From positions 1 to 31,752 of the IMG/VR virus record IMGVR_UViG_3300020451_000189: a stretch of 31,752 nucleotides of DNA; one strand, 5' to 3'. Made by a program: the position numbers and the translations under genes. Positions 7,879 through 20,678 of this stretch are shown piece by piece. Every line of letters starts with the position of its first letter. Positions within the stretch are counted from its first letter, which is position 1. The DNA is from a virus. The notes below the pieces were generated by a model, which worked only from the letters and a program-made list of their open reading frames with translations, did no database searches and was not told the origin of the DNA.

Positions 7879-8331
7879 TTATATACGGACGAACTTATAA
7901 ATTTCATCACTACCCCAGACTTTCTCACCCTTCTGATTAAATCCTCTGTCTCTTGAGAATAATTTGTCTCCATAGAGATTAATCATAGATTCTACTGTGT
8001 ATCCTTTCTCACCTTTACATTTTGTACCGTCTAGTTTACCAATCCAATAGTCATCACAAAATGTAAAATGCATATCACATTCTTGATGTCTTGTTCCATC
8101 AAGCCTAAAATTCTGCATAATTACGTAATTTTTATCTGCTACTTGTATCTTATGTTTTTTATTACGGTATGGTTTATGAGGACCATCTACTCTATAAAAA
8201 TTCTTAGAGGTATACCAATCCCCTTCCTTTGCCCAGATAATCTCTGTCTGAGCAAAGATATGAGGATTAGATTGTGCTTGTGCTCTGTTATGCCAATGAC
8301 CTAACAGATACTCATCAAAAATTGACTCCAT
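7879..8331 (-). CDS. cpeT: CpeT-like phycobiliprotein lyase (150 aa)
   Basis: The sequence follows the CpcT/CpeT (T-type lyase) pattern: an N-terminal LLGHWHNRAQAQSNPHIFAQ, then IIWAKEGDWYTSKNFY and a later FTFCDDYWIGKLDGTKCKG with CKGEKGYTVESMI. Host T-type lyases attach a bilin, usually phycoerythrobilin, to a Cys of the phycoerythrin beta subunit; known phage homologues bind phycoerythrobilin. At 150 residues it is shorter than host CpeT (about 200), as is usual for phage versions. It is an auxiliary metabolic gene sitting between CP12 and gp5, inside the tail gene block. It acts with ho1 (26775-27473), which starts bilin synthesis. Substrate specificity cannot be read from the sequence. 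Confidence 0.85.
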   Translation of the reverse strand: MESIFDEYLLGHWHNRAQAQSNPHIFAQTEIIWAKEGDWYTSKNFYRVDGPHKPYRNKKHKIQVADKNYVIMQNFRLDGTRHQECDMHFTFCDDYWIGKLDGTKCKGEKGYTVESMINLYGDKLFSRDRGFNQKGEKVWGSDEIYKFVRI

Positions 8332-8345
8332 TACAAAAATAATAT

Positions 8346-8651
8346 CTAATCGTCGTATACTCTACACTCAAATGCGTCTGGATGATTGTCGCAATAGATT
8401 TCTAAATGCTTATCTTCATGTCTTGTATGCCAGTCATTTATCCTTCCTTCATTAGGATCTACCACATCATTTTTGTGATACTCTTCATAATCTGCATGAA
8501 CTTCTTCAAGTTCAGACTTTTTATACTCTAACATACCATGATTGATATGCTCTTTTCCATCTTTAGGATCAAGATAAACTTCGTGATCTAGGTCATGAGT
8601 CCTTTTCGCTTGAGGATTTTCTCCGATACCTTTAAATTCTTCGGTAATCAT
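8346..8651 (-). CDS. cp12: CP12-like Calvin cycle inhibitor (101 aa)
   Basis: The C-terminus, HLEIYCDNHPDAFECRVYDD (residues 82-101), matches the CP12 GAPDH-binding tail. It has Cys87 and Cys96 eight residues apart, the PDA between them and the acidic end. CP12 bridges glyceraldehyde-3-phosphate dehydrogenase and phosphoribulokinase and shuts down carbon fixation. In phages it is thought to divert reducing power to nucleotide synthesis. The N-terminal Cys pair of many host CP12s is absent, as in marine picocyanobacterial forms. A charged helical segment (KKSELEEVHADYEEYHK) precedes the tail. The ATG at 8651 has a good Shine-Dalgarno sequence (AGGAG, 7 bases away) and a late-promoter-like motif just upstream. 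Confidence 0.85.
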   Translation of the reverse strand: MITEEFKGIGENPQAKRTHDLDHEVYLDPKDGKEHINHGMLEYKKSELEEVHADYEEYHKNDVVDPNEGRINDWHTRHEDKHLEIYCDNHPDAFECRVYDD

Positions 8652-8682: not shown

Positions 8683-10054
8683 TTAACACAGAGTCCTTGA
8701 GTAAGTCTAGTTCGGTATAAAGAATAGTTCCTGTAGTGTTATGTTTTACTGACGATATCAAATATCTACCACTATATTTCCTGTCTAATGGTGTTTGTCT
8801 ACCAGATTTAAAGTTAGCAGGGATGATAACATCTATTCCACCACCCACATACAAGTCTAGATTACCTGGTATTGTTATCTTGAGTTGAATGTTCTTGAGT
8901 GATTCTAATCTCATAAATTGATATGCTTGTAAATCTATCAACTCTTGATAGTTTGCTTGAGGATTATTGATAAACTTAGGATCAAATGTTTGATTAGGTA
9001 AGAAAGAATACCTTATTCTTCTTGGTTTACCAATCATCTTATGAACCATAGGATCTAATTGAGTCAATGGGTTAACAGTTTTCTTTCCATCTAAGTGAGA
9101 CATCTTATCCCATATAGAATCTAATTGGTAAGTAGGATCATCAGTTGTTAGTTCTGTACTCATACCCATCTTAGATGAACCTAAAGTTACAGGATCAAAT
9201 CCAACTGAGTAACCTGAGTAACTACCATCTCTCATGAGTTCTAATAGATGTTTCTCTCTTGGAAATGTAACACCACTAATAGCAAAAGCATCAGCACCAG
9301 TATTATCAACTTTCTTAGGACTATAGTGATACTTGTAGCATCTTGGTTTACCTGTAAGTTTATTAGTTTTCTTATCAAATGTTTGATCATTAATATCATC
9401 AATCAATCCATCAATAGATCTGAAATGATAACCTAAACCATTTTCATAGAATACAAATCCATTCTGTAGTATGCCACCCTTCCTAGATTTTCTTACACTT
9501 CTTTGTGCTAACCAATAGATTGTATCAAGAGGTCTCCAATTAGGTGCAGTAAATTTTTGATTATTAATAGTCTCCTCAACAAATATTTTCTTCTTACTAT
9601 TAAGATACCTAGAGTTAGTTAAAAGATTTTGTACTATTGAACTTGCTTCTATATCACCTTTAAATATTACTTCTGACTGACCAAAGACATTGACTGATTC
9701 ATTAGTAATAAACTCAGTAGAAACTGCCTCAACCATGAACACATCGTTAGATGGATTAGTTCTAGAACGTGAGTGGACACAATAGATTCTAAAATTATAA
9801 GTTCTATCAACAATAGAAGTTATAACTTGTAGTTTCAACTCTTCATGTCCTGTCATCATGTTAACAATACCTGCAGAGTCTTCAAAAACAAATGATGCCT
9901 CTACTGTAGAACTATCAAGACGTTCACGTATCTCCCAACCTCTACAGAAATTGTACAAGTTGAATGCTCCTTCTTTATTTGACAAACGTTTTCCGTCTCT
10001 GAAAAGACTAAGACGAAATTCCATTTCTCCTACATTATTTCTTTTTATTGCCAT
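8678..10054 (-). CDS. 27: Baseplate hub protein, gp27-like (458 aa)
   Basis: The region of residues 170-217 contains PNWRPLDTIYWLAQRSVRKS, then GFVFYENGLGYHFRSIDGLI. This is the signature of the gp27/VgrG-like hub fold (a P-W-PLD-I-WLA helix followed by an FYE-GY-F-SI strand pair). The protein is slightly longer than T4 gp27 (about 390). It would form the hub ring on which the gp5 spike sits, at the junction of the tail tube and baseplate. The gene shares one base with the preceding tape-measure-like gene and precedes cp12/cpeT and gp5. Gene order (gp26, tape measures, gp27, gp5) supports the call; residue-level identity to gp27 is low by eye. Confidence 0.6.
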   Translation of the reverse strand: MAIKRNNVGEMEFRLSLFRDGKRLSNKEGAFNLYNFCRGWEIRERLDSSTVEASFVFEDSAGIVNMMTGHEELKLQVITSIVDRTYNFRIYCVHSRSRTNPSNDVFMVEAVSTEFITNESVNVFGQSEVIFKGDIEASSIVQNLLTNSRYLNSKKKIFVEETINNQKFTAPNWRPLDTIYWLAQRSVRKSRKGGILQNGFVFYENGLGYHFRSIDGLIDDINDQTFDKKTNKLTGKPRCYKYHYSPKKVDNTGADAFAISGVTFPREKHLLELMRDGSYSGYSVGFDPVTLGSSKMGMSTELTTDDPTYQLDSIWDKMSHLDGKKTVNPLTQLDPMVHKMIGKPRRIRYSFLPNQTFDPKFINNPQANYQELIDLQAYQFMRLESLKNIQLKITIPGNLDLYVGGGIDVIIPANFKSGRQTPLDRKYSGRYLISSVKHNTTGTILYTELDLLKDSVLR

Positions 10055-13000
10055 TAGAATTTCGCGATGTTAAAGTTACTCTGTAGGTTAGCAGCACTCA
10101 ATGATGCTTTAGATCCTGCAAGACCTTGCATTCCTCCACCACCTCTCTTGAGGTTTTCAATAGCAGAAGTTGCAGCAGCAACGTTTGCTCTTACTGAAGA
10201 GTTGTGTGCTTCAACAGCAGCCATAGTTTCTGCAACAAGTCTCCTTGTTCTTTCACTTATCTGTTCTCTAGCATAACTTCTATCACTATATACCTTCTTC
10301 AAAGCATATGCTTCTTTTCTTTCTTGAACTTGATTTGCTCCACCTTTTGCTTGTCCACCAGAGTTTGTAGGACCTCCTAATATACTACCAGTACCAGTGT
10401 TACCAGAACTTGCAGAGGTTGTAGATGGACTATACTGTGTGGTTGATGCTTTCGATGCTGCGAATGCTGATCCACGTTTATTCTTCTTAGTATCAGTTTC
10501 TTTTCTACTAGGGAAGAATGGATTCTTACCATCTGCAACTCCTAGATCAGTGTTCTTCATGTAATCATTGAAGAACTTATTACCTTCAGTACTGAATACT
10601 GTGCTACCAAATTTAACATTAGATGCACTTGAATCACTAGAGTATAAACTCTTTCCAAATTTGGTAGAGTTCATCAATGCCATTGCTTGAGGATCAGAGA
10701 AACCTTTACCCGTGATCATACCACTCAACCAAGTATCATTTGTCGCACCTATCAATGACTTCTCAGCCTTGTTCAACATTGCAGGATTGTAGATACCACT
10801 TTCATCAACACCAATAGAATCAAGTATATCACTCATAGATGAACTACGTTTTCCAGACAGATTGCCAGCTTGATTAAAGATACTTCTAGCAGCAACTGCC
10901 ATTGCATCTGAATCACCACCAGTCTGTTTGATGATAACTTTCTTCATTCTTTCTAACTCACTTCCTGACATACCAATAGCACCGCTACCTGCTACCTGAC
11001 TGTCACCAAATCCCATTTGAATTTTATTCTTTACACCAAATGAACCAGGTGCTTTCTTATCACCACCAAATGTCCATTTACCCCAGTTGTTACCAACAAT
11101 AGATGTTAACTTTAACCCTGCTCTATTAGCGTACGCCATGTTAGCAACGTTCTGGTTCTGAGCATCTTTATTACCCTTACCGAACCAAGCAACATCAAAT
11201 GCTAATCCTTTCTTGTAGAGACCACCTCTACCATTTCTTTGTCTACCTGCTGCATCATATCCTGATCTATTAGGAGGTCCTTTTCTCCATCTATTATTTT
11301 TAAAGTTAGGATGATTAAAGACTGTGTATCCTTGGTTCAAGAACCCACGACCTGCCTCAACTACTGCTTGTTTTCCACCACCTACAAGTTTTTGATCTGC
11401 ACCTTTACCACCACCTGTTTGAGAAGCACCAAGAACATTACCTAATGCTTGAGCAGCACCTCCACCATCAGCAGAACCCATAACATTCTGTAAGATACCA
11501 CCAAGAGGTCCTCCTACTTGATTTGCAAAGTTACCTGCAAACTTACCTAAGAAATCTTTACCGAATGCTCCAAGACGCTCACCAAATGACATGCCCTCAG
11601 TACCAGGACCGAATAACTGATTAGCAATACCACCTGCAGTATTCATCCATCCAAATGCTTTACTACTTGGATCCATGAACTGACCTGCAATATTCACACC
11701 ACCTTTTAGAATATCCATGAAGGTTGCTTTACCACCTTCACCACTACCTCCACCACCAAATATAGTTTGTATAGTGCTACCAATAGCACCTCCTTTGTTA
11801 CCAAAGATAGAAGCACCTAGTTGTGGTAGATTCTGCATGATCCTGCTTCCGATTCCACCACTACTGCTACTGCTACTACTACCACCGTCACTTGGACGAC
11901 CACTACCATATGTTCCTAATCCAAATCCACCAGTTCTACCTGATCCTCTGTTACCACCACTCCAAGTCTTACCTGTTAATAAATTACCTGCACCTTTAAA
12001 CAATCCACCTAAGAAGAATTGTTTATCAGATATACGTGGCATATCAAATCCAAGAGATGAAGCAGTCATCATGTTGGATTCAGTTAAACCAGGCATTGCT
12101 CTTGTGGCAGAGTTATTGAATGGTATAACAAAACTCTCACCAGTATTTTTCTTCGCTACATACTCAGTTCCGTGACCAATAAACTCAGGACTACCACCAC
12201 CAGGACTTGTAGACACAGGATAACCTGAGTCAGGACCAGAGATCCAACCACCAGTAGCAAAACCAGGTAATGATTTGAATGGTTTCGGACGGTAACCACC
12301 TTGTTCCATCTCATCATCTTCATCATCAGCACCCATCTGTTTAATCTTATTAGCACCCCAGAGAGTTCCACCAACTGCAATGGTTGCACCTAATGCTTTA
12401 CCTTTCCAACCACCAGGAAATCTTCCTCTAGATTTTAATCCTTTAGAAAATCTAGTTAATGATCTATAAAATGATGTAAGTACAAACCTAACATCTTTAA
12501 TTAACTTTAGAGGGTTAGTTAACCATCTTATACCTACAAAAAGAGCAGCTAAGTTTACGAATGACCTAGCAAATCCCGTCAGTCTTTCCCACCATGTAGC
12601 ATCCTCTTTTAATAAATTGTATAACCCGTCAACTATTCCTCCTATCCTTTTCTGTAAGAAGTTACTGATCCATTTGAATGCCTTGTAAATGGCTTCAATA
12701 GCATTGACTATCTTCTGTTGATTCCGTTTATCTGCTAACCATTCCAACGCAGGTTTTATTATTGCTAGTTTAATAAACCCACTAAGAATCTGTAGCAAAC
12801 CTTTTAAGAAGTTTGGTGCGTTCCTACCTACAAACTCATTAACAAATGATACAAACTTAGGTTTCTCTACCTTAGTATACTTGGGTTCAAATTTCTTTAT
12901 CCTTTTCTTCTCGTCTGCTAATCTTTTTAGTTCTATCTTCTTTATATCTGCAACAACACCACCAATAGAATTAAGACATGCTCCAAGATTATTATATGCT

Positions 13001-13122
13001 TGGATAGTTTTCATCTGATAAACACCCGATGACTTATCAGCAGCACCAGCCGCAGCACTCTTCGCAATATTAGGAGAGATTAATTTATAAGTATCGATCT
13101 TGGTATCTTTAGATATAGCCAT
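10054..13122 (-). CDS. Tape-measure-like virion structural protein, copy 2 (1022 aa)
   Basis: The N-terminus (KIDTYKLISPN... then NSIGGVVADIKKIELKRL) is paralogous to that of the adjacent upstream 1,060-residue protein. It is followed by hydrophobic helices (LLQILSGFIKLAIIKPALEW) and a WWERLTGF segment also shared. Around residue 290-330, FATGGWISGPDSGYPV and then IGHGTEYVAKK...FVIPF resemble the GG-x-GP...viP motif of tail tape-measure proteins. Around 600-690 there is a peptidase-M15-like phrase (YKKGLAFDVAWFGKG...NRAGL). A possible hydrolase-like region lies around 720-760. Gly/Ala-rich low-complexity sequence dominates the middle. It likely sits inside the tail tube and sets length or assists injection. 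It ends overlapping the gp27-like start. Confidence 0.65.
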   Translation of the reverse strand: MAISKDTKIDTYKLISPNIAKSAAAGAADKSSGVYQMKTIQAYNNLGACLNSIGGVVADIKKIELKRLADEKKRIKKFEPKYTKVEKPKFVSFVNEFVGRNAPNFLKGLLQILSGFIKLAIIKPALEWLADKRNQQKIVNAIEAIYKAFKWISNFLQKRIGGIVDGLYNLLKEDATWWERLTGFARSFVNLAALFVGIRWLTNPLKLIKDVRFVLTSFYRSLTRFSKGLKSRGRFPGGWKGKALGATIAVGGTLWGANKIKQMGADDEDDEMEQGGYRPKPFKSLPGFATGGWISGPDSGYPVSTSPGGGSPEFIGHGTEYVAKKNTGESFVIPFNNSATRAMPGLTESNMMTASSLGFDMPRISDKQFFLGGLFKGAGNLLTGKTWSGGNRGSGRTGGFGLGTYGSGRPSDGGSSSSSSSGGIGSRIMQNLPQLGASIFGNKGGAIGSTIQTIFGGGGSGEGGKATFMDILKGGVNIAGQFMDPSSKAFGWMNTAGGIANQLFGPGTEGMSFGERLGAFGKDFLGKFAGNFANQVGGPLGGILQNVMGSADGGGAAQALGNVLGASQTGGGKGADQKLVGGGKQAVVEAGRGFLNQGYTVFNHPNFKNNRWRKGPPNRSGYDAAGRQRNGRGGLYKKGLAFDVAWFGKGNKDAQNQNVANMAYANRAGLKLTSIVGNNWGKWTFGGDKKAPGSFGVKNKIQMGFGDSQVAGSGAIGMSGSELERMKKVIIKQTGGDSDAMAVAARSIFNQAGNLSGKRSSSMSDILDSIGVDESGIYNPAMLNKAEKSLIGATNDTWLSGMITGKGFSDPQAMALMNSTKFGKSLYSSDSSASNVKFGSTVFSTEGNKFFNDYMKNTDLGVADGKNPFFPSRKETDTKKNKRGSAFAASKASTTQYSPSTTSASSGNTGTGSILGGPTNSGGQAKGGANQVQERKEAYALKKVYSDRSYAREQISERTRRLVAETMAAVEAHNSSVRANVAAATSAIENLKRGGGGMQGLAGSKASLSAANLQSNFNIAKF

Positions 13123-13133
13123 GTGAATATTTA

Positions 13134-16100
13134 TTATGCTTGAGCAGGTTGTGGCATTGGAACAGGTACCATCCTAGGTATAGGAACAGGAGTTGGTATC
13201 TCTACTAACTTCTCTAACAACATAGGAACAGGTATAAACTCAAGTGATGACTGCATAGCATACTCTCTTGACATACCACCTTTCTTATTACTCATTGACT
13301 TTGCAGTCTGTGACATAATACCAAGCACCTCTGGTCTAACACCCAACTCAGCTGCCATATTTCTTAGACCGTTAACGAGTCCACCAGGACCACCTGCTCC
13401 CATCATACCTGTGATGGTTCTAAACAAGCCACCAAATCCCATCTGATCTGCGATGTTACCTATCAATCCCATAGGAGAGAACCCTGCTGCTCCAAAGGAA
13501 TCTAACCCAAATAACTGAGACAAACCTGGTACATTAGCAACACCAGGTATCATACCAATGAGTCCACCAACAGCTGGGAACTTTTTCATTACTCCACCAA
13601 ACTTATTCAACATTCCTTGAACACCCTCTGGTAAAAATCCTTGTATACCTCCCATGAGTCCACCTAATGCTCCACCAATACCTCCCTGCATAAACCCACC
13701 TATTGCTTTACCGAATGGATTATTAGACATGAAGTTACCAAACTTGTCTGCCATACCACCGAAGGTACCAGGGAACATACCACCTAGAGCACCGATACCA
13801 CCAGTAATTGCACCAAATATATCACCAGATGCAGCAGCACCTATAGCACGAATAGCACCTATGAATGGTGCAGCAGGAGGAAATACTATTGGAACAACTG
13901 CTCCTAAAATACTACCTATAGGTCCAGTAGCGACGCTTTTTACAACGTTAGTAACACCTTTAACTACACCACCTATTGCTTTACCAATACTTTTAATAAT
14001 ACCACCAAAGAAAAATTGTTTCTTGTTTAGTCTTGGTAATCTACTTGTTACTTGACCACCTTCAGCCCAACTAAATGGATTCCACCATGATCCTTTCTTC
14101 TTTGCAGTATCTGTTTTCTTAGATCCAATACCAAAGGAACCCTCTGGCATTGTGTCACCATATCTTTCATTGTCTGACTCTACACCTTTATATTCTTCCT
14201 GAGGTACAAAAGGTTTTGTCTTGTATGAAGATCCAAAATCTATACCTTCTAATGGGTTATGTTTTTTACCGTGCTTTCTTTCGTATGGACTTACGTAAGT
14301 ACTCTTTGGAGTGATACTAAATGATCCTTCTGGGAATGTATCACCATACCTTTCGTTGTCTGTTTCTACACCTTTGTATGCATTCTGAGGAACAAAAGGC
14401 ATGTTAGCATAGTCAAGGAAAGGATTCTTAAACTTCTTGGCGTTTACCTGTCCAATAGGAACGTCTTCACCATCTTTCCTGTAACCAATAATCCTACCAC
14501 GCTTATTCTTTATAGGAACTCCTCTACTATCTGCAGAATCAGTTACATCAGTAGTATCAGTTCTAGAACCAGTAGTATCAGTATCATTAACAGTGCCTTC
14601 ACCTTCGACACCCTCCATTCCCTTTCCAGTTTCAGTCTTACCTTGGCTTACTTGTCCTGCTTCTGGGAAGAATGATTTGTGTAGTAATGGGAACGTGTTA
14701 CCAGTAAGGTTCGCCATCCAGAAGACGTTGGGTATTTCTTTACCCATCATCATTCCGAACGGACCAAGCATAGCTTTGATTGCTATCTTAGCACCAGCCC
14801 ATATCTTATTTCTAAATGGTGTTAACTTAGGAATCCATTTAGGAGGATCTTGAGGGAAGTCTGGTATCTTAAACTTAGGAATACCCTTATAGAATCTTGT
14901 CCATCCATTCTTTATCCAACCTAACATCTTGGTAAAGTTTTGGAAGAGACCTACCAAATCTTCTCTTAACTTTTGACCTGCAGCTTTCCATCCACCACCT
15001 TTGAATCCAATGTACAATAACTCACCAACATATTCACCACCCATCATACCGATGAATGATCCTATGCCTGGTATAGGAATCAATGTTCCAAGTGCACCAC
15101 CAATAGCAGCACCTGCTGTTTTAAATATTACTTTTTCCCAAGGATCACCATTTAATATGGAGAACACTGCTGTTAACATGCTACCAAAAATAGGTATCCT
15201 GCCAAAGGTATTTTTAAATGCTTTGCTAAGAAGTTTTACATTATTTTTTCCAAGAAACTTTAAAGCACCACGACCAAATCCTCTGTTCAAACCTTTGGAT
15301 AATATCTTTCCTGTTGGAGCTGTCCTAGGATTAAGACCTGATGTAACTGGTGGTTTAGGTGGCGGCTTAAATGCAGATGGATTCTTTCTTGCTAATCTCT
15401 TAACTCTTTGAAGTGCTTGCTCCTTAGTTAATCCTTGCTTAAGTGCATCACGATATGCTACATTACCATTCTTACCATACTTATTGAAGATAGGATTATT
15501 CTTACCTAACTTTACTGTCTTATTAAAATTCTTAACTCTACTATTGACCCTACTATTACTATTAGATGTGTTAGAATTTTTACTATTATTCCGTCTGTTT
15601 GGATTATAGAAATCCAGATTCAACATATTAAGGATTGAATTCATCAATCCAAATGGATTTAATAATGCTTGCAGTCCTACTATCCCTAGTAGTAATGTAC
15701 CTAAACCTTTTAACCTAGTCCAAAAACTAGCCTTACCATCAACTAGTGCAGAGAATCCATCTAGTACTTTGGTTACACTACCCTTTGCAAATCCATATAA
15801 TTTCTTAACTACAAAAGATAATTTCTGTAAGAACACTGCTATCTTTTTTATCTCTCCTGCATCTGATGCCCATGTTAGAAGACCTTTTATAGCAAGTAGA
15901 TTTACAAGACCCGCAACAAATTGCATTGCTGCTACTAACAGTCCCTGTACACCACCAAAGAGTGCCTCACCAAATTTTACAAGAGCACTCTTCTTGGGTT
16001 TCGCAATTTGTGATTTCTTTATCTTACCAATACCTTTTCCCTTTAAGGCATTAGATCTTTCAAACTCATCTTCATTTCTTTGATCCCTTTCACGCTGTAG

Positions 16101-16316
16101 TCTACGACGTTCAGAGATTTCTCTCATCTTATCAAGTTTAACCGATGAAAGAGATATAGTATGAAGATCTTTTACTACAAGCCCTATACTGTTAACAGTC
16201 TTTCCAAGACGATTAACAGCTAGCAAATTAGTCCTAGGACCATTGGATGCGATTGTATTCTTGCCTGATCCACTAGGATTAACTAACTTATAAGTATCGA
16301 TTTTAGGGTTAGCCAC
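13134..16316 (-). CDS. Tape-measure-like virion structural protein, copy 1 (1060 aa, GTG start)
   Basis: The GTG at 16316 overlaps the end of the preceding start-less ORF by 8 bases (GTGGCTAA), implying translational coupling. The N-terminus KIDTYKLVNPSGSGK and NSIGLVVKDLHTISLSSVKL is shared with the 1,022-residue neighbour. Then come a highly charged helix (RRRLQRERDQRNEDEFERSN), hydrophobic helices around 115-225, and Gly/Ala/Pro-rich hydrophobic stretches in the last third. The end is proline-rich (EIPTPVPIPRMVPVPMPQPA). Two imperfect copies of a PFVPQ...YGDT...PEGSF segment lie about 60 residues apart. Size (about 1,060 residues would give roughly 150 nm at 1.5 angstrom per residue), hydrophobicity and position just after the gp26 unit all fit a tape measure. 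Confidence 0.65.
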   Translation of the reverse strand: MANPKIDTYKLVNPSGSGKNTIASNGPRTNLLAVNRLGKTVNSIGLVVKDLHTISLSSVKLDKMREISERRRLQRERDQRNEDEFERSNALKGKGIGKIKKSQIAKPKKSALVKFGEALFGGVQGLLVAAMQFVAGLVNLLAIKGLLTWASDAGEIKKIAVFLQKLSFVVKKLYGFAKGSVTKVLDGFSALVDGKASFWTRLKGLGTLLLGIVGLQALLNPFGLMNSILNMLNLDFYNPNRRNNSKNSNTSNSNSRVNSRVKNFNKTVKLGKNNPIFNKYGKNGNVAYRDALKQGLTKEQALQRVKRLARKNPSAFKPPPKPPVTSGLNPRTAPTGKILSKGLNRGFGRGALKFLGKNNVKLLSKAFKNTFGRIPIFGSMLTAVFSILNGDPWEKVIFKTAGAAIGGALGTLIPIPGIGSFIGMMGGEYVGELLYIGFKGGGWKAAGQKLREDLVGLFQNFTKMLGWIKNGWTRFYKGIPKFKIPDFPQDPPKWIPKLTPFRNKIWAGAKIAIKAMLGPFGMMMGKEIPNVFWMANLTGNTFPLLHKSFFPEAGQVSQGKTETGKGMEGVEGEGTVNDTDTTGSRTDTTDVTDSADSRGVPIKNKRGRIIGYRKDGEDVPIGQVNAKKFKNPFLDYANMPFVPQNAYKGVETDNERYGDTFPEGSFSITPKSTYVSPYERKHGKKHNPLEGIDFGSSYKTKPFVPQEEYKGVESDNERYGDTMPEGSFGIGSKKTDTAKKKGSWWNPFSWAEGGQVTSRLPRLNKKQFFFGGIIKSIGKAIGGVVKGVTNVVKSVATGPIGSILGAVVPIVFPPAAPFIGAIRAIGAAASGDIFGAITGGIGALGGMFPGTFGGMADKFGNFMSNNPFGKAIGGFMQGGIGGALGGLMGGIQGFLPEGVQGMLNKFGGVMKKFPAVGGLIGMIPGVANVPGLSQLFGLDSFGAAGFSPMGLIGNIADQMGFGGLFRTITGMMGAGGPGGLVNGLRNMAAELGVRPEVLGIMSQTAKSMSNKKGGMSREYAMQSSLEFIPVPMLLEKLVEIPTPVPIPRMVPVPMPQPAQA

Positions 16317-16521
16317 TAGATGCTTGTTGCTTAGCTTGTTGATCTTTCATTCTTTTCTCTTCTTCCTTAAGGAAGTCGATTAACATAGTCACATAGATTT
16401 CCTTCTCCCAAGGCATAAGGTTTTCAATGTGTTCTATATGCCATTTATGATGATGTATCAGGGCAAAGTTGGTATCATAATAAGCCCGAAGGTTATTATG
16501 GAGAAGGGCTATCCGAAAAAA
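16309..16521 (-). CDS. Start-less ORF, probable -1 frameshift extension of gp26
   Basis: This frame encodes about 70 residues ending ...MKDQQAKQQASSG and contains LRAYYDTNFALIHHHKW and HIEHIENLMPWEKEIYVTML. That is the compact helical pattern seen in the second part of tail-assembly chaperones. No ATG, GTG or TTG exists upstream of the core; the first ATG falls at LMPWE, after much of the conserved-looking part. It lies in the -1 frame relative to gp26 and overlaps gp26 at T TTT TTC. Slippage there would give a gp26 fusion of about 303 residues. An ATA start coupled to the gp26 TAG (ATAG) giving a roughly 67-residue protein, or separate initiation elsewhere, are alternatives. By position it matches T4 gene 51, but similarity to gp51 is not claimed. 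Confidence 0.6.
   Translation of the reverse strand, partial: FFRIALLHNNLRAYYDTNFALIHHHKWHIEHIENLMPWEKEIYVTMLIDFLKEEEKRMKDQQAKQQASSG
16476..16521 (-). promoter_or_regulatory. Putative -1 ribosomal frameshift signal in gp26
   Basis: The heptamer T TTT TTC (16521 to 16515) is in the gp26 frame as TCT TTT TTC GGA TAG, the correct phase for simultaneous -1 slippage. Five bases later GCCC (16509-16506) could pair with GGGC in the loop of a hairpin. That hairpin has arms CATAATAA (16500-16493) and TTATTATG (16483-16476), which pair perfectly over 8 bp. Spacer length and order resemble a slippery site followed by a pseudoknot. The topology was worked out by eye, without folding software. Confidence 0.55.
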
Positions 16522-17219
16522 GATGCTAGTCCTTCTAGTGTCACATCACTTACTACTTTTGTTTTAGGATTTGTAACTTTGAGTTTATGAGATAACTTAG
16601 GCATAGTCTCAAAGAAGTCTTGGACTTTCTTAAACTGAGCAGAACTCATTTGGTCTAAGAATTCTAGAACTTCTGCCTTTGGCATTTCTTTACAGTTGTG
16701 TACCTCTTCTGGGGTAGTAACTGTTGCAACACAACTTGCTGCCATGTCAAAGACTTGATCTACATCCTGTTGATTATCAACAAAGTTTGCCTTAACAAAT
16801 GTATCAAGACTTGGGTAGTTCATAGTGATCATGATCTCATCAGACATCTTGATCTCTTTGTTATGACCCTTAGTCTTTTGAACTTTGATAGAGTCTAATG
16901 GTATCTTAACTTCGACTAATGTTTCGTTATCGTCTGGACAAGTGACACCTACTTCTACGCTCTCACCAACAGACTTGGTTCTGATTTGTAAGAATACAAA
17001 TTCAATATCAAATGTTGGAAGTGCTTCTACATCTTTAATATCAGTGCATGCACCAATAATATCTTTGATAGCATTTACAATACTATCTTGGTTTCCAGTC
17101 TCAGTAGCAATCAATAGAACTTTCTCTTCCTTAACAAGGAATGGTCTATAATTTACTACTCTACCGTCAGACGGTAGTTTCATTTTAAACTTCGGTGTTA
17201 CTAAGGTCGGTAATGCCAT
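16509..17219 (-). CDS. 26: gp26-like baseplate hub / tail-assembly chaperone protein (236 aa)
   Basis: The N-terminus MALPTLVTPKFKMKLPSDGR and FRPFLVKEEKVLLIA (here YRPFLVKEEKVLLIATETGN) is characteristic of the T4 gp26 family (Pfam T4_baseplate), found in all T4-like phages at about 210-240 residues. Further family-like features are CVATVTTPEEVHNCKEM and a helical C-terminus with LEFLDQMSSAQFKKVQDFF. T4 gp26 is assigned to baseplate hub assembly. Here the gene directly precedes the tape measures, where phages place tail-assembly chaperones. Its last codons carry a slippery heptamer into the downstream -1 frame. A CTAAATA motif similar to late promoters lies about 15-25 bases upstream. Confidence 0.85.
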   Translation of the reverse strand: MALPTLVTPKFKMKLPSDGRVVNYRPFLVKEEKVLLIATETGNQDSIVNAIKDIIGACTDIKDVEALPTFDIEFVFLQIRTKSVGESVEVGVTCPDDNETLVEVKIPLDSIKVQKTKGHNKEIKMSDEIMITMNYPSLDTFVKANFVDNQQDVDQVFDMAASCVATVTTPEEVHNCKEMPKAEVLEFLDQMSSAQFKKVQDFFETMPKLSHKLKVTNPKTKVVSDVTLEGLASFFG

Positions 17220-18630: not shown

Positions 18631-19686
18631 TTGAGCGTTTATAGATATCCATACAGATTACCAGCTACTAGGTCGCAATACGGTGGTAAGGCAGCCGATA
18701 TGCCTACTGATGCAACCGATTATCTAATGATTAGACGTGAGAGATATCAGTATGATGATCAACAAGTTCCTGCATTCTATGACAGAAGAACACCAGGTAA
18801 TCAACAAACTATAATTGCACACCCAGATAGATGTTACATTGCTATTCCTCCACAGATTACTACACAGTACGCTCCTGCATATAGAAGAGCAGACGTTGGT
18901 GTGTCTGGTGTTGCAGCAATGGGACTACTAGGTGATGGTAAAGACTTTACTGCAATGGCAGGAACATTACAAGATGCTGCAGCTGCTGCACTACCTGAGT
19001 TCTCTACTGGTGCTATACTATCAATGATCAATGGATTCAACCAGTTTGTTGGTCTTCAAGGTCAGTTAGATATTAATACTATACAATCATTACAGAGTGG
19101 TAAGATATTCAACCCATATAGTGAACAGATATTCCAAGGTATGAGTTTTAGAACTCATAACTTTGCATTCAAATTCTTGGCAAGGAATGCTAGAGAGTCA
19201 CAAGAAATTAAAAGTATTATAGATTATATAAAAATAGGTGCTATGCCTAAGATAGCAGCAGGTGATTATAATAAGAAATTTATTAACAAGAACAAGAAGT
19301 TCGCAGCATATGGTAAGGATCAGTCTAGAGATAAGATGACCTTTGATCAAGACTGGTTTAAGACAGATGCTTTTAGTGGTAGTGATGGATATGCATATCA
19401 AAATAGATTCTTCGAGGTTCCTGATAGATATCAGTTAAGGTTTGTTCGTTTTGGAACTGATGTTTCTTCACTTGGTAGTCTTGAACCATCACAAAGAAGA
19501 GATCTGATGTTTAAAATTTATCCTTCTGTTTGTACAGGTATAAATGTAAACTATACACCAGACAACCAATACGTATCACTTAAAAATCCATCAGAACAAA
19601 CAACAGATGTTCCTGCGATAGTTATGACTATAACATTCACAGAAACTAGACTACTTACACAACAAGACGTAGCAGCAGGTTATTAA
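18631..19686 (+). CDS. 48: Baseplate tail-tube cap gp48 (351 aa, TTG start)
   Basis: The family signature is at residues 160-205: FNPYSEQIFQGMSFRTHNFA and FKFLARNARESQEIKSIIDY. This is the tail-tube-cap fold (Pfam T4_tail_cap) of T4 gp48, which sits on the hub with gp54 to nucleate tail tube assembly. Length matches the family (about 350). The conserved N-terminus MSVYRYPYRLP starts at TTG. No in-frame ATG or GTG is present upstream before stops, and AGG lies about 8 bases before the TTG, so the TTG appears to be the real start. The stop overlaps the gp53 start as TAATG. This gene and gp53 form a two-gene plus-strand island in a minus-strand region. Confidence 0.9.
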   Translation: MSVYRYPYRLPATRSQYGGKAADMPTDATDYLMIRRERYQYDDQQVPAFYDRRTPGNQQTIIAHPDRCYIAIPPQITTQYAPAYRRADVGVSGVAAMGLLGDGKDFTAMAGTLQDAAAAALPEFSTGAILSMINGFNQFVGLQGQLDINTIQSLQSGKIFNPYSEQIFQGMSFRTHNFAFKFLARNARESQEIKSIIDYIKIGAMPKIAAGDYNKKFINKNKKFAAYGKDQSRDKMTFDQDWFKTDAFSGSDGYAYQNRFFEVPDRYQLRFVRFGTDVSSLGSLEPSQRRDLMFKIYPSVCTGINVNYTPDNQYVSLKNPSEQTTDVPAIVMTITFTETRLLTQQDVAAGY

Positions 19687-20678
19687 TGGCATTCTTTTCT
19701 TATCTTCCAAATGTATATGTAGGTGAAGGCATCACAGATGATGAAGACTTCAAGTATCGTCTTGTCAAAAATATATTCAGAAGAGCAAAGACACGAGCAG
19801 ACTTAGATCAGTATGTAACTTTACTAGAAGCATACGAGGTAGGAGAAGATGAATCACCTGCTAATGTTGCACTAGCATTTTTTAACGATCCATTTTTAGA
19901 CTGGATGATCCTGATGGTTAATAATATTACTGATGTATATGAACAGTGGCCAAAAAATATTAATGACCTACAAAATTTTTGTAGAAGTAAATATAATGAT
20001 CCTGATTCTATTCATCATTACGAAACAGTCAAGGCAGAATATAATGGAGAACTATTTTTAGAAGCAGGAATAACTGTAAATGATACTTGGAGAACTGTAT
20101 TACCTGATGGTTCTACTCTAGGTGAGACAGAATCAATATATCCAGTAACAAACTATGAGTATGAAGATTATTTGAATGAACAGAAAAGACTTATAAAATT
20201 ACCAACACCTCCTGTAGTAGAATTAATACTAGCAGAGTTTGAAGATGTCATTGCTTACGAACCTCATTCAGAACTAGATTACTATGGTAATAAGAAGAGT
20301 ACTTTAAATATGTCTTCTCGTTTCCTTGATACTGCAGGTTATGTTACTGGTAGTGTAAGTAGAGATGCTAGTGTAGGTAACGTAACATCATATGATAACG
20401 GACCAGGTAGCACAACTATACAGGTTGCTGCGGGTGTGTCTACTACTGAAACAACTGCTCCACTAACATCAGTAACACCAGATTCTGGTACAAGTAACAC
20501 TACAGTAGCAGGAACTGCTACAGCTTCAGCGTCAGAATCTACAGCAGTAACAAATTCTTCCAGCTCAAGCACCAGTTCTTCCAGCTCAAGTAGTTCTAGT
20601 TCAAGTAGTAGCAGTAGTAGTAGCAGTAGTTCTTCTTCATCTTCTGGATCTTCTGGATCTTCTTACGGAGGATACTAA
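19686..20678 (+). CDS. 53: Baseplate wedge subunit gp53 with serine-rich tail (330 aa)
   Basis: Residues 1-130 carry the gp53 family pattern: MAFFSYLPNVYVGEG, DDEDFKYRLVKNIFRRAK, and VALAFFNDPFLDWMILMVNN followed by YEQWPKNINDLQNF. T4 gp53 (about 196 residues) attaches the wedges to the hub. This protein is longer: residues from about 215 to the end form a Thr/Ser-rich linker and a nearly pure Ser run ending GSSGSSYGGY, probably added later in evolution and disordered. The ATG shares a base with the gp48 stop (TAATG). The gene ends 8 bases before the palindromic element at 20687, which could terminate it. Confidence 0.9.
   Translation: MAFFSYLPNVYVGEGITDDEDFKYRLVKNIFRRAKTRADLDQYVTLLEAYEVGEDESPANVALAFFNDPFLDWMILMVNNITDVYEQWPKNINDLQNFCRSKYNDPDSIHHYETVKAEYNGELFLEAGITVNDTWRTVLPDGSTLGETESIYPVTNYEYEDYLNEQKRLIKLPTPPVVELILAEFEDVIAYEPHSELDYYGNKKSTLNMSSRFLDTAGYVTGSVSRDASVGNVTSYDNGPGSTTIQVAAGVSTTETTAPLTSVTPDSGTSNTTVAGTATASASESTAVTNSSSSSTSSSSSSSSSSSSSSSSSSSSSSSSGSSGSSYGGY

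Follow-up and report, generated by a model that had tools for sequence, protein, structure and literature searches.

In lambda, the slip site of the gpG/gpGT frameshift is G GGA AAG, and a downstream stimulatory RNA structure is common, though not universal, at chaperone frameshifts. Xu, Hendrix and Duda reportedly described, in 2004, a conserved tail-gene frameshift of double-stranded DNA phages, of which lambda gpG/gpGT is an example. A chaperone frameshift arrangement has already been described for T4-like phages (Vladimirov, Gautam and Davidson 2022, Virology 566:9-15, doi 10.1016/j.virol.2021.11.003, as relayed in PMC10885494 and PMC12846349); consequently, as far as those accounts of it go, the principle is known and most likely the gene pair too. 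For T4 itself, PMC3004832 lists gp26 as well as gp51 among the hub assembly chaperones, and gives gp51 as required yet absent from the particle. Literature searches turned up no direct report of a frameshift in cyanophage gp26.

The window analyzed here is a stretch of viral DNA of 31,752 nucleotides (IMG/VR record IMGVR_UViG_3300020451_000189), from a marine phage of the T4-like type, and its gp26 homologue lies on the minus strand, between an ATG at 17219 and a TAG stop at 16511..16509 (Table 1). The gene product matched the PF12322 profile (T4 baseplate protein, gp26/gp51) with E = 1.2e-72 and 244.5 bits, against a curated cut-off of 24.5, as well as phrog_150 in PHROGs. The zero frame ends in TCT TTT TTC GGA TAG, and the heptamer fits the X XXY YYZ phase. 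The initial annotation had pointed to a correctly phased T TTT TTC near the gp26 stop; the heptamer is indeed there, precisely one sense codon before the stop. The -1 frame, which reads through SIFFRIALLHNNLRAYYDTNFALIHHHKWHIEHIENLMPWEKE, runs from CGG ATA GCC to a TAA at 16311..16309 (minus strand). The stretch of about 68 residues that had been proposed to lack a start before its core proved to be 68 codons long, without any ATG, GTG or TTG ahead of the ATG within NLMPW, and at that ATG most of the conserved core is already lost. Two further details of the annotation were borne out, namely the overlap with the GTG of the next gene, which amounts to 8 nt, and the size of the fusion, whose predicted length is 235 + 68 = 303 residues.

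Table 1. Features at and around the gp26 junction of the window, with the evidence on which each assignment is based
Feature	Position	Strand	Evidence
gp26 homologue, zero-frame product, 236 aa; short tail assembly chaperone (TAC-N)	16509..17219	minus	PF12322, phrog_150, N-domain fold match
Slippery heptamer T TTT TTC, in zero-frame phase	16515..16521	minus	in-phase T TTT TTN in 234/235 distinct relatives
gp26 stop TAG, one sense codon past the heptamer	16509..16511	minus	zero-frame reading
-1 extension, start-less, 68 codons + TAA; long-form C-domain (TAC-C, 'gp51')	16309..16515	minus	phrog_634, N/S, T4 gp51 fusion
5' arm of candidate stimulatory stem-loop (CATAATAA)	16493..16500	minus	paired in 5/5 distinct close relatives
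3' arm of candidate stimulatory stem-loop (TTATTATG)	16476..16483	minus	pairing in relatives; family codon-preserving folding
Next gene, 1060 aa, GTG start at 16316; probable tape measure protein	13134..16316	minus	position, size, hydrophobic segments; phrog_790

We consider it very probable that gp26 and the start-less ORF form one tail assembly chaperone gene, with a short product and a long, -1-slipped one. Most ribosomes would stop at the TAG and release the 236-residue short form; a fraction would slip backwards by a single base at T TTT TTC, probably with the help of the stem-loop, and, now in the -1 frame, continue beyond the TAG to yield the 303-residue long form. If the division of labor is as in lambda gpG/gpGT, the tape measure protein would be coated by the short form, and tail tube subunits would be recruited through the C-domain of the long one. 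We infer slippage itself, its rate and the chaperone role from the sequence, its conservation, coding selection, the homology with T4 and a fold match. The heptamer alone is weak evidence, since the main ORFs of the whole window contain 29 in-phase XXXYYYZ heptamers in 9188 codons; it is the comparative evidence, rather than the heptamer or the hairpin alone, that makes the case for a frameshift.

The initial annotation had named loss of the heptamer in close relatives as an observation that would speak against a frameshift. No such loss was seen: all of the best 80 viral-contig relatives (80/80) retain TTTTTTC, followed after one codon by TAG, as well as a -1 ORF of about the same length (one of these ORFs ends at a contig edge). 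T TTT TTN also occurs in the distant phages HTVC008M, VH7D, D490, Ahp1, phiN3, RL2RES, S-N03, S-SKS1, P-HM2, 65.2, Ah1, Cr30, BUCT608, ACP17, Melnitz-1, S-PM2 and P-TIM68. In line with the proposed junction, comparison across lineages showed that the heptamer, the frame relation and the -1 ORF are kept together in Kyanoviridae, Schizotequatrovirus, Cinqassovirus, Ishigurovirus, Emdodecavirus, Pootjesviridae and others. Over all loci, T TTT TTN was in phase in 234 of 235 distinct gp26 DNAs. When sequences were grouped at 50% identity (22 clusters) or 70% identity (72 clusters), the probability that all clusters carry NNT TTT at the site by chance was about 10^-12 and 10^-30, respectively, as calculated from each gene's own codon use with clusters treated as independent.

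The single exception among the 235 DNAs, L195, is close to Stenotrophomonas phage BUCT608 and has five Ts near the gp26 C-terminus. A run of five instead of six breaks both the short and the long form, and is possibly a homopolymer sequencing error. In eight contigs (L114, L116, L123, L140, L143, L145, L150 and L176) the gp26 stop lies 8 codons past the heptamer instead of 1, so that the short form ends differently, with slip site and -1 ORF retained.

A six-T homopolymer exactly at the junction, together with the five-T version in L195, could also suggest that the junction of the window is itself a sequencing error, or the scar of a broken gene that was once one reading frame. To this we assign a negligible probability: the six-T junction with its TAG recurs in those same 80 independent contigs and in isolates that many groups have sequenced, and a broken gene does not sit well with a -1 frame under strong purifying selection. 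Conservation has already refuted this reading.

The selection on the -1 frame is apparent from comparisons of the window with its relatives, in which N/S was about 0.1-0.2 in this frame (individual values ~0.06-0.18) and mostly near or above 1 in the other two frames. Judging from these substitution patterns, the -1 ORF is protein-coding, with strong purifying selection in the -1 frame only. Its product matched phrog_634 ('baseplate hub assembly catalyst') with E = 1.4e-30, and a tblastn search retrieved 482 phage records at E < 0.01, mostly from cyanophages. An in-phase slippery heptamer and an open -1 frame with protein-coding selection are both found, then, at the end of gp26.

Alternatively, the -1 ORF could be a small gene in its own right (gp51), initiated independently or by ribosomes that re-initiate once gp26 has been read. 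Most cyanophage annotations take this view (P-SSM4, S-PM2, HTVC008M and others), and in several lineages (D490, RL2RES, Cr30) an ATG overlaps the gp26 stop or lies just past it. The expectation that the -1 ORF always lacks a start stood for the window, which has no early ATG, and failed for the family as a whole: an ATG is present within the first 12 codons in 89 of 177 representatives (90% identity), in which the heptamer is retained too. Re-initiation could thus contribute in about half of the representatives. Nevertheless, we regard a separate gp51 gene as improbable. Neither the window, ahead of the core, nor 77 of the 177 representatives, within the first 12 codons, has any start codon, and a Shine-Dalgarno-like core precedes the early ATG in only 2 of the 89 cases. 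The annotated gp51 starts often cut the conserved domain (P-HM2, HTVC008M, Melnitz-1), and homology extends upstream of any start, up to the slip site (FFR[IL]). Moreover, the slip site is retained throughout, and the T4 homologue is a fusion.

This last point deserves some detail. T4 gp26 (208 aa) and T4 gp51 (249 aa) both belong to PF12322, and only gp51 has an extra C-domain, which matches phrog_634. Aligned with T4 gp51, the C-terminus of which is fused in frame, the -1 product of the window continues gap-free over the junction (FFRIALL/VFKLLVN). Each of the 18 frameshift-type genomes examined has a single PF12322 gene, with the slip site in 18/18, whereas T4, RB43, Krischvirus LF73P4 and Aeromonas phage 31 (4/4) have two, a short gp26 and a long gp51. 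In the short copies of these two-gene phages we found neither a slip site nor a -1 ORF of the frameshift kind. Copy number and the lack of a slip site in the short copies indicate that T4-type phages use two genes where the others frameshift.

In three Gram-positive relatives, GXN1 (L099 1504-2253), SP-15 (L276 801-1541) and LIS04 (L277 801-1529), the C-domain-like stretch lies in the +1 frame, not in the -1 frame. All three have CC CGA TTY just before the stop (CCC CGA TTT, GCC CGA TTC and ACC CGA TTC), which, from its position, is a candidate +1 shift site.

The reading of gp26 as the short chaperone and of the 303-residue fusion as the long form is supported by conservation and by homology with T4 gp51, and agrees with the predicted fold. 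An AlphaFold2 model of gp26, built from 47 sequences, had a pLDDT of 87.7. The best three VIA-align matches were 2ob9 (the HK97 chaperone; Z 7.7), 3klu (YqbN; 7.1) and 3fgx (7.0); the chaperone matches all fell within residues 1-94, and the next row had Z 4.8. Values of 7-8 are moderate and may occur between unrelated folds. Foldseek against the PDB returned no match to the model below E 0.001, although its list included 2ob9 with probability 0.57; only the VIA realignment, not Foldseek, put chaperones first. An NCBIfam search gave no match. In the model, then, the predicted N-domain is best matched by solved tail assembly chaperones, as expected for a chaperone fold, at moderate Z.

Downstream of the heptamer, the perfect 8-bp hairpin that had been claimed is present and begins after 14 nt. 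It pairs in 5/5 distinct sequences of the window's lineage, with one two-sided change (A-U to C-G). By itself the hairpin is weak evidence, because the junction of the window folds no better than its dinucleotide shuffles (z -0.27). Over the family, a codon-preserving test was applied, in which the encoded amino acids are fixed and synonymous recodings serve as the control. The 42 nt just after the heptamer fold better than their recodings (mean z -1.85, 46% below -2, n = 177), compared to a mean z of about -0.3 for three later stretches in the same 177 representatives. Covariation within one lineage (21 sequences) gave 9 cells with two-sided changes, a number reached by 0 of 500 shuffles. Family folding, covariation and the 5/5 pairing make a stimulatory stem-loop likely for the family as a whole and plausible for the window. 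The best stem register varies between lineages, which rules out one universal hairpin.

A pseudoknot between GCCC (16509..16506) and GGGC (16487..16484, minus strand) had also been proposed, but of 5 distinct close relatives only 2 allow full pairing. The GCCC is explained by the IAL codons, and the geometry looks strained, with 0 nt between the GGGC arm and the 3' arm of the hairpin. The pseudoknot is not conserved, and this part of the proposal is not supported.

Runs of T or A allow transcriptional slippage in some systems, so a run of six Ts might in principle lead the polymerase, instead of the ribosome, to generate the long-form mRNA. We judge this very improbable: the run seems short for such a process, it is always in X XXY YYZ phase, and the RNA structure under codon-independent selection downstream suits ribosomes better.

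The 1060-residue ORF that follows is Gly-rich, with hydrophobic segments. It matched phrog_790, named endolysin in PHROGs, and nothing in solved structures or Pfam. In the relatives HTVC008M, Cr30 and LIS04, the annotated tape measure gene lies one or two genes downstream. From its position, size and hydrophobic segments, we take the 1060-residue ORF to be a probable tape measure protein. The N-terminal parts encoded by 10054-13122 and 13134-16316 have PHROG families in common (again named endolysin) and both start with a KIDTYKL motif, so that the two look like tandem paralogues. Elsewhere in the tail gene block are two host-metabolism genes, encoding a small protein with a C-terminal CP12 match (8346-8651) and a CpeT-like protein (7879-8331). 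The protein encoded by 19686-20678 ends with a long, nearly pure serine tract.

These results correct a widespread mis-annotation in cyanophages: gp51, given in the records as a gene of its own and often cut short, is on this evidence the part of the chaperone made by frameshifting. This correction, together with a stem-loop under selection, is the added value of the analysis; the codon-controlled evidence for the stem-loop may be its new part. The results also connect two long-known hub genes of T4, 26 and 51, with the G/GT system of lambda, and they allow frameshifting and gene duplication, as two ways of setting a protein ratio, to be compared in nature. We tentatively propose, giving it slightly less than an even chance, that the means of producing the long form has been exchanged within one chaperone family: most of these phages would rely on a -1 slip, with a covarying stem-loop particular to each lineage; T4-type phages would have duplicated the gene; and SP-15, LIS04 and GXN1 would possibly shift by +1. 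Selection would then keep the short-to-long ratio, not the mechanism.

Compared with known systems, the window resembles lambda gpG/gpGT in gene layout, with a probable -1 slip towards the 3' end of a short chaperone gene, just ahead of the probable tape measure gene, and a predicted short and long form; it differs in its slip site, T TTT TTC, and in its contractile, T4-like tail. With T4 it shares homologous short and long proteins, which in T4 come from two separate, diverged genes and in the window probably from a frameshift. The T4-like tail assembly chaperones of Vladimirov et al. (2022), as they are presented in the articles that relay that work, are most likely the same gene pair as that of the window.
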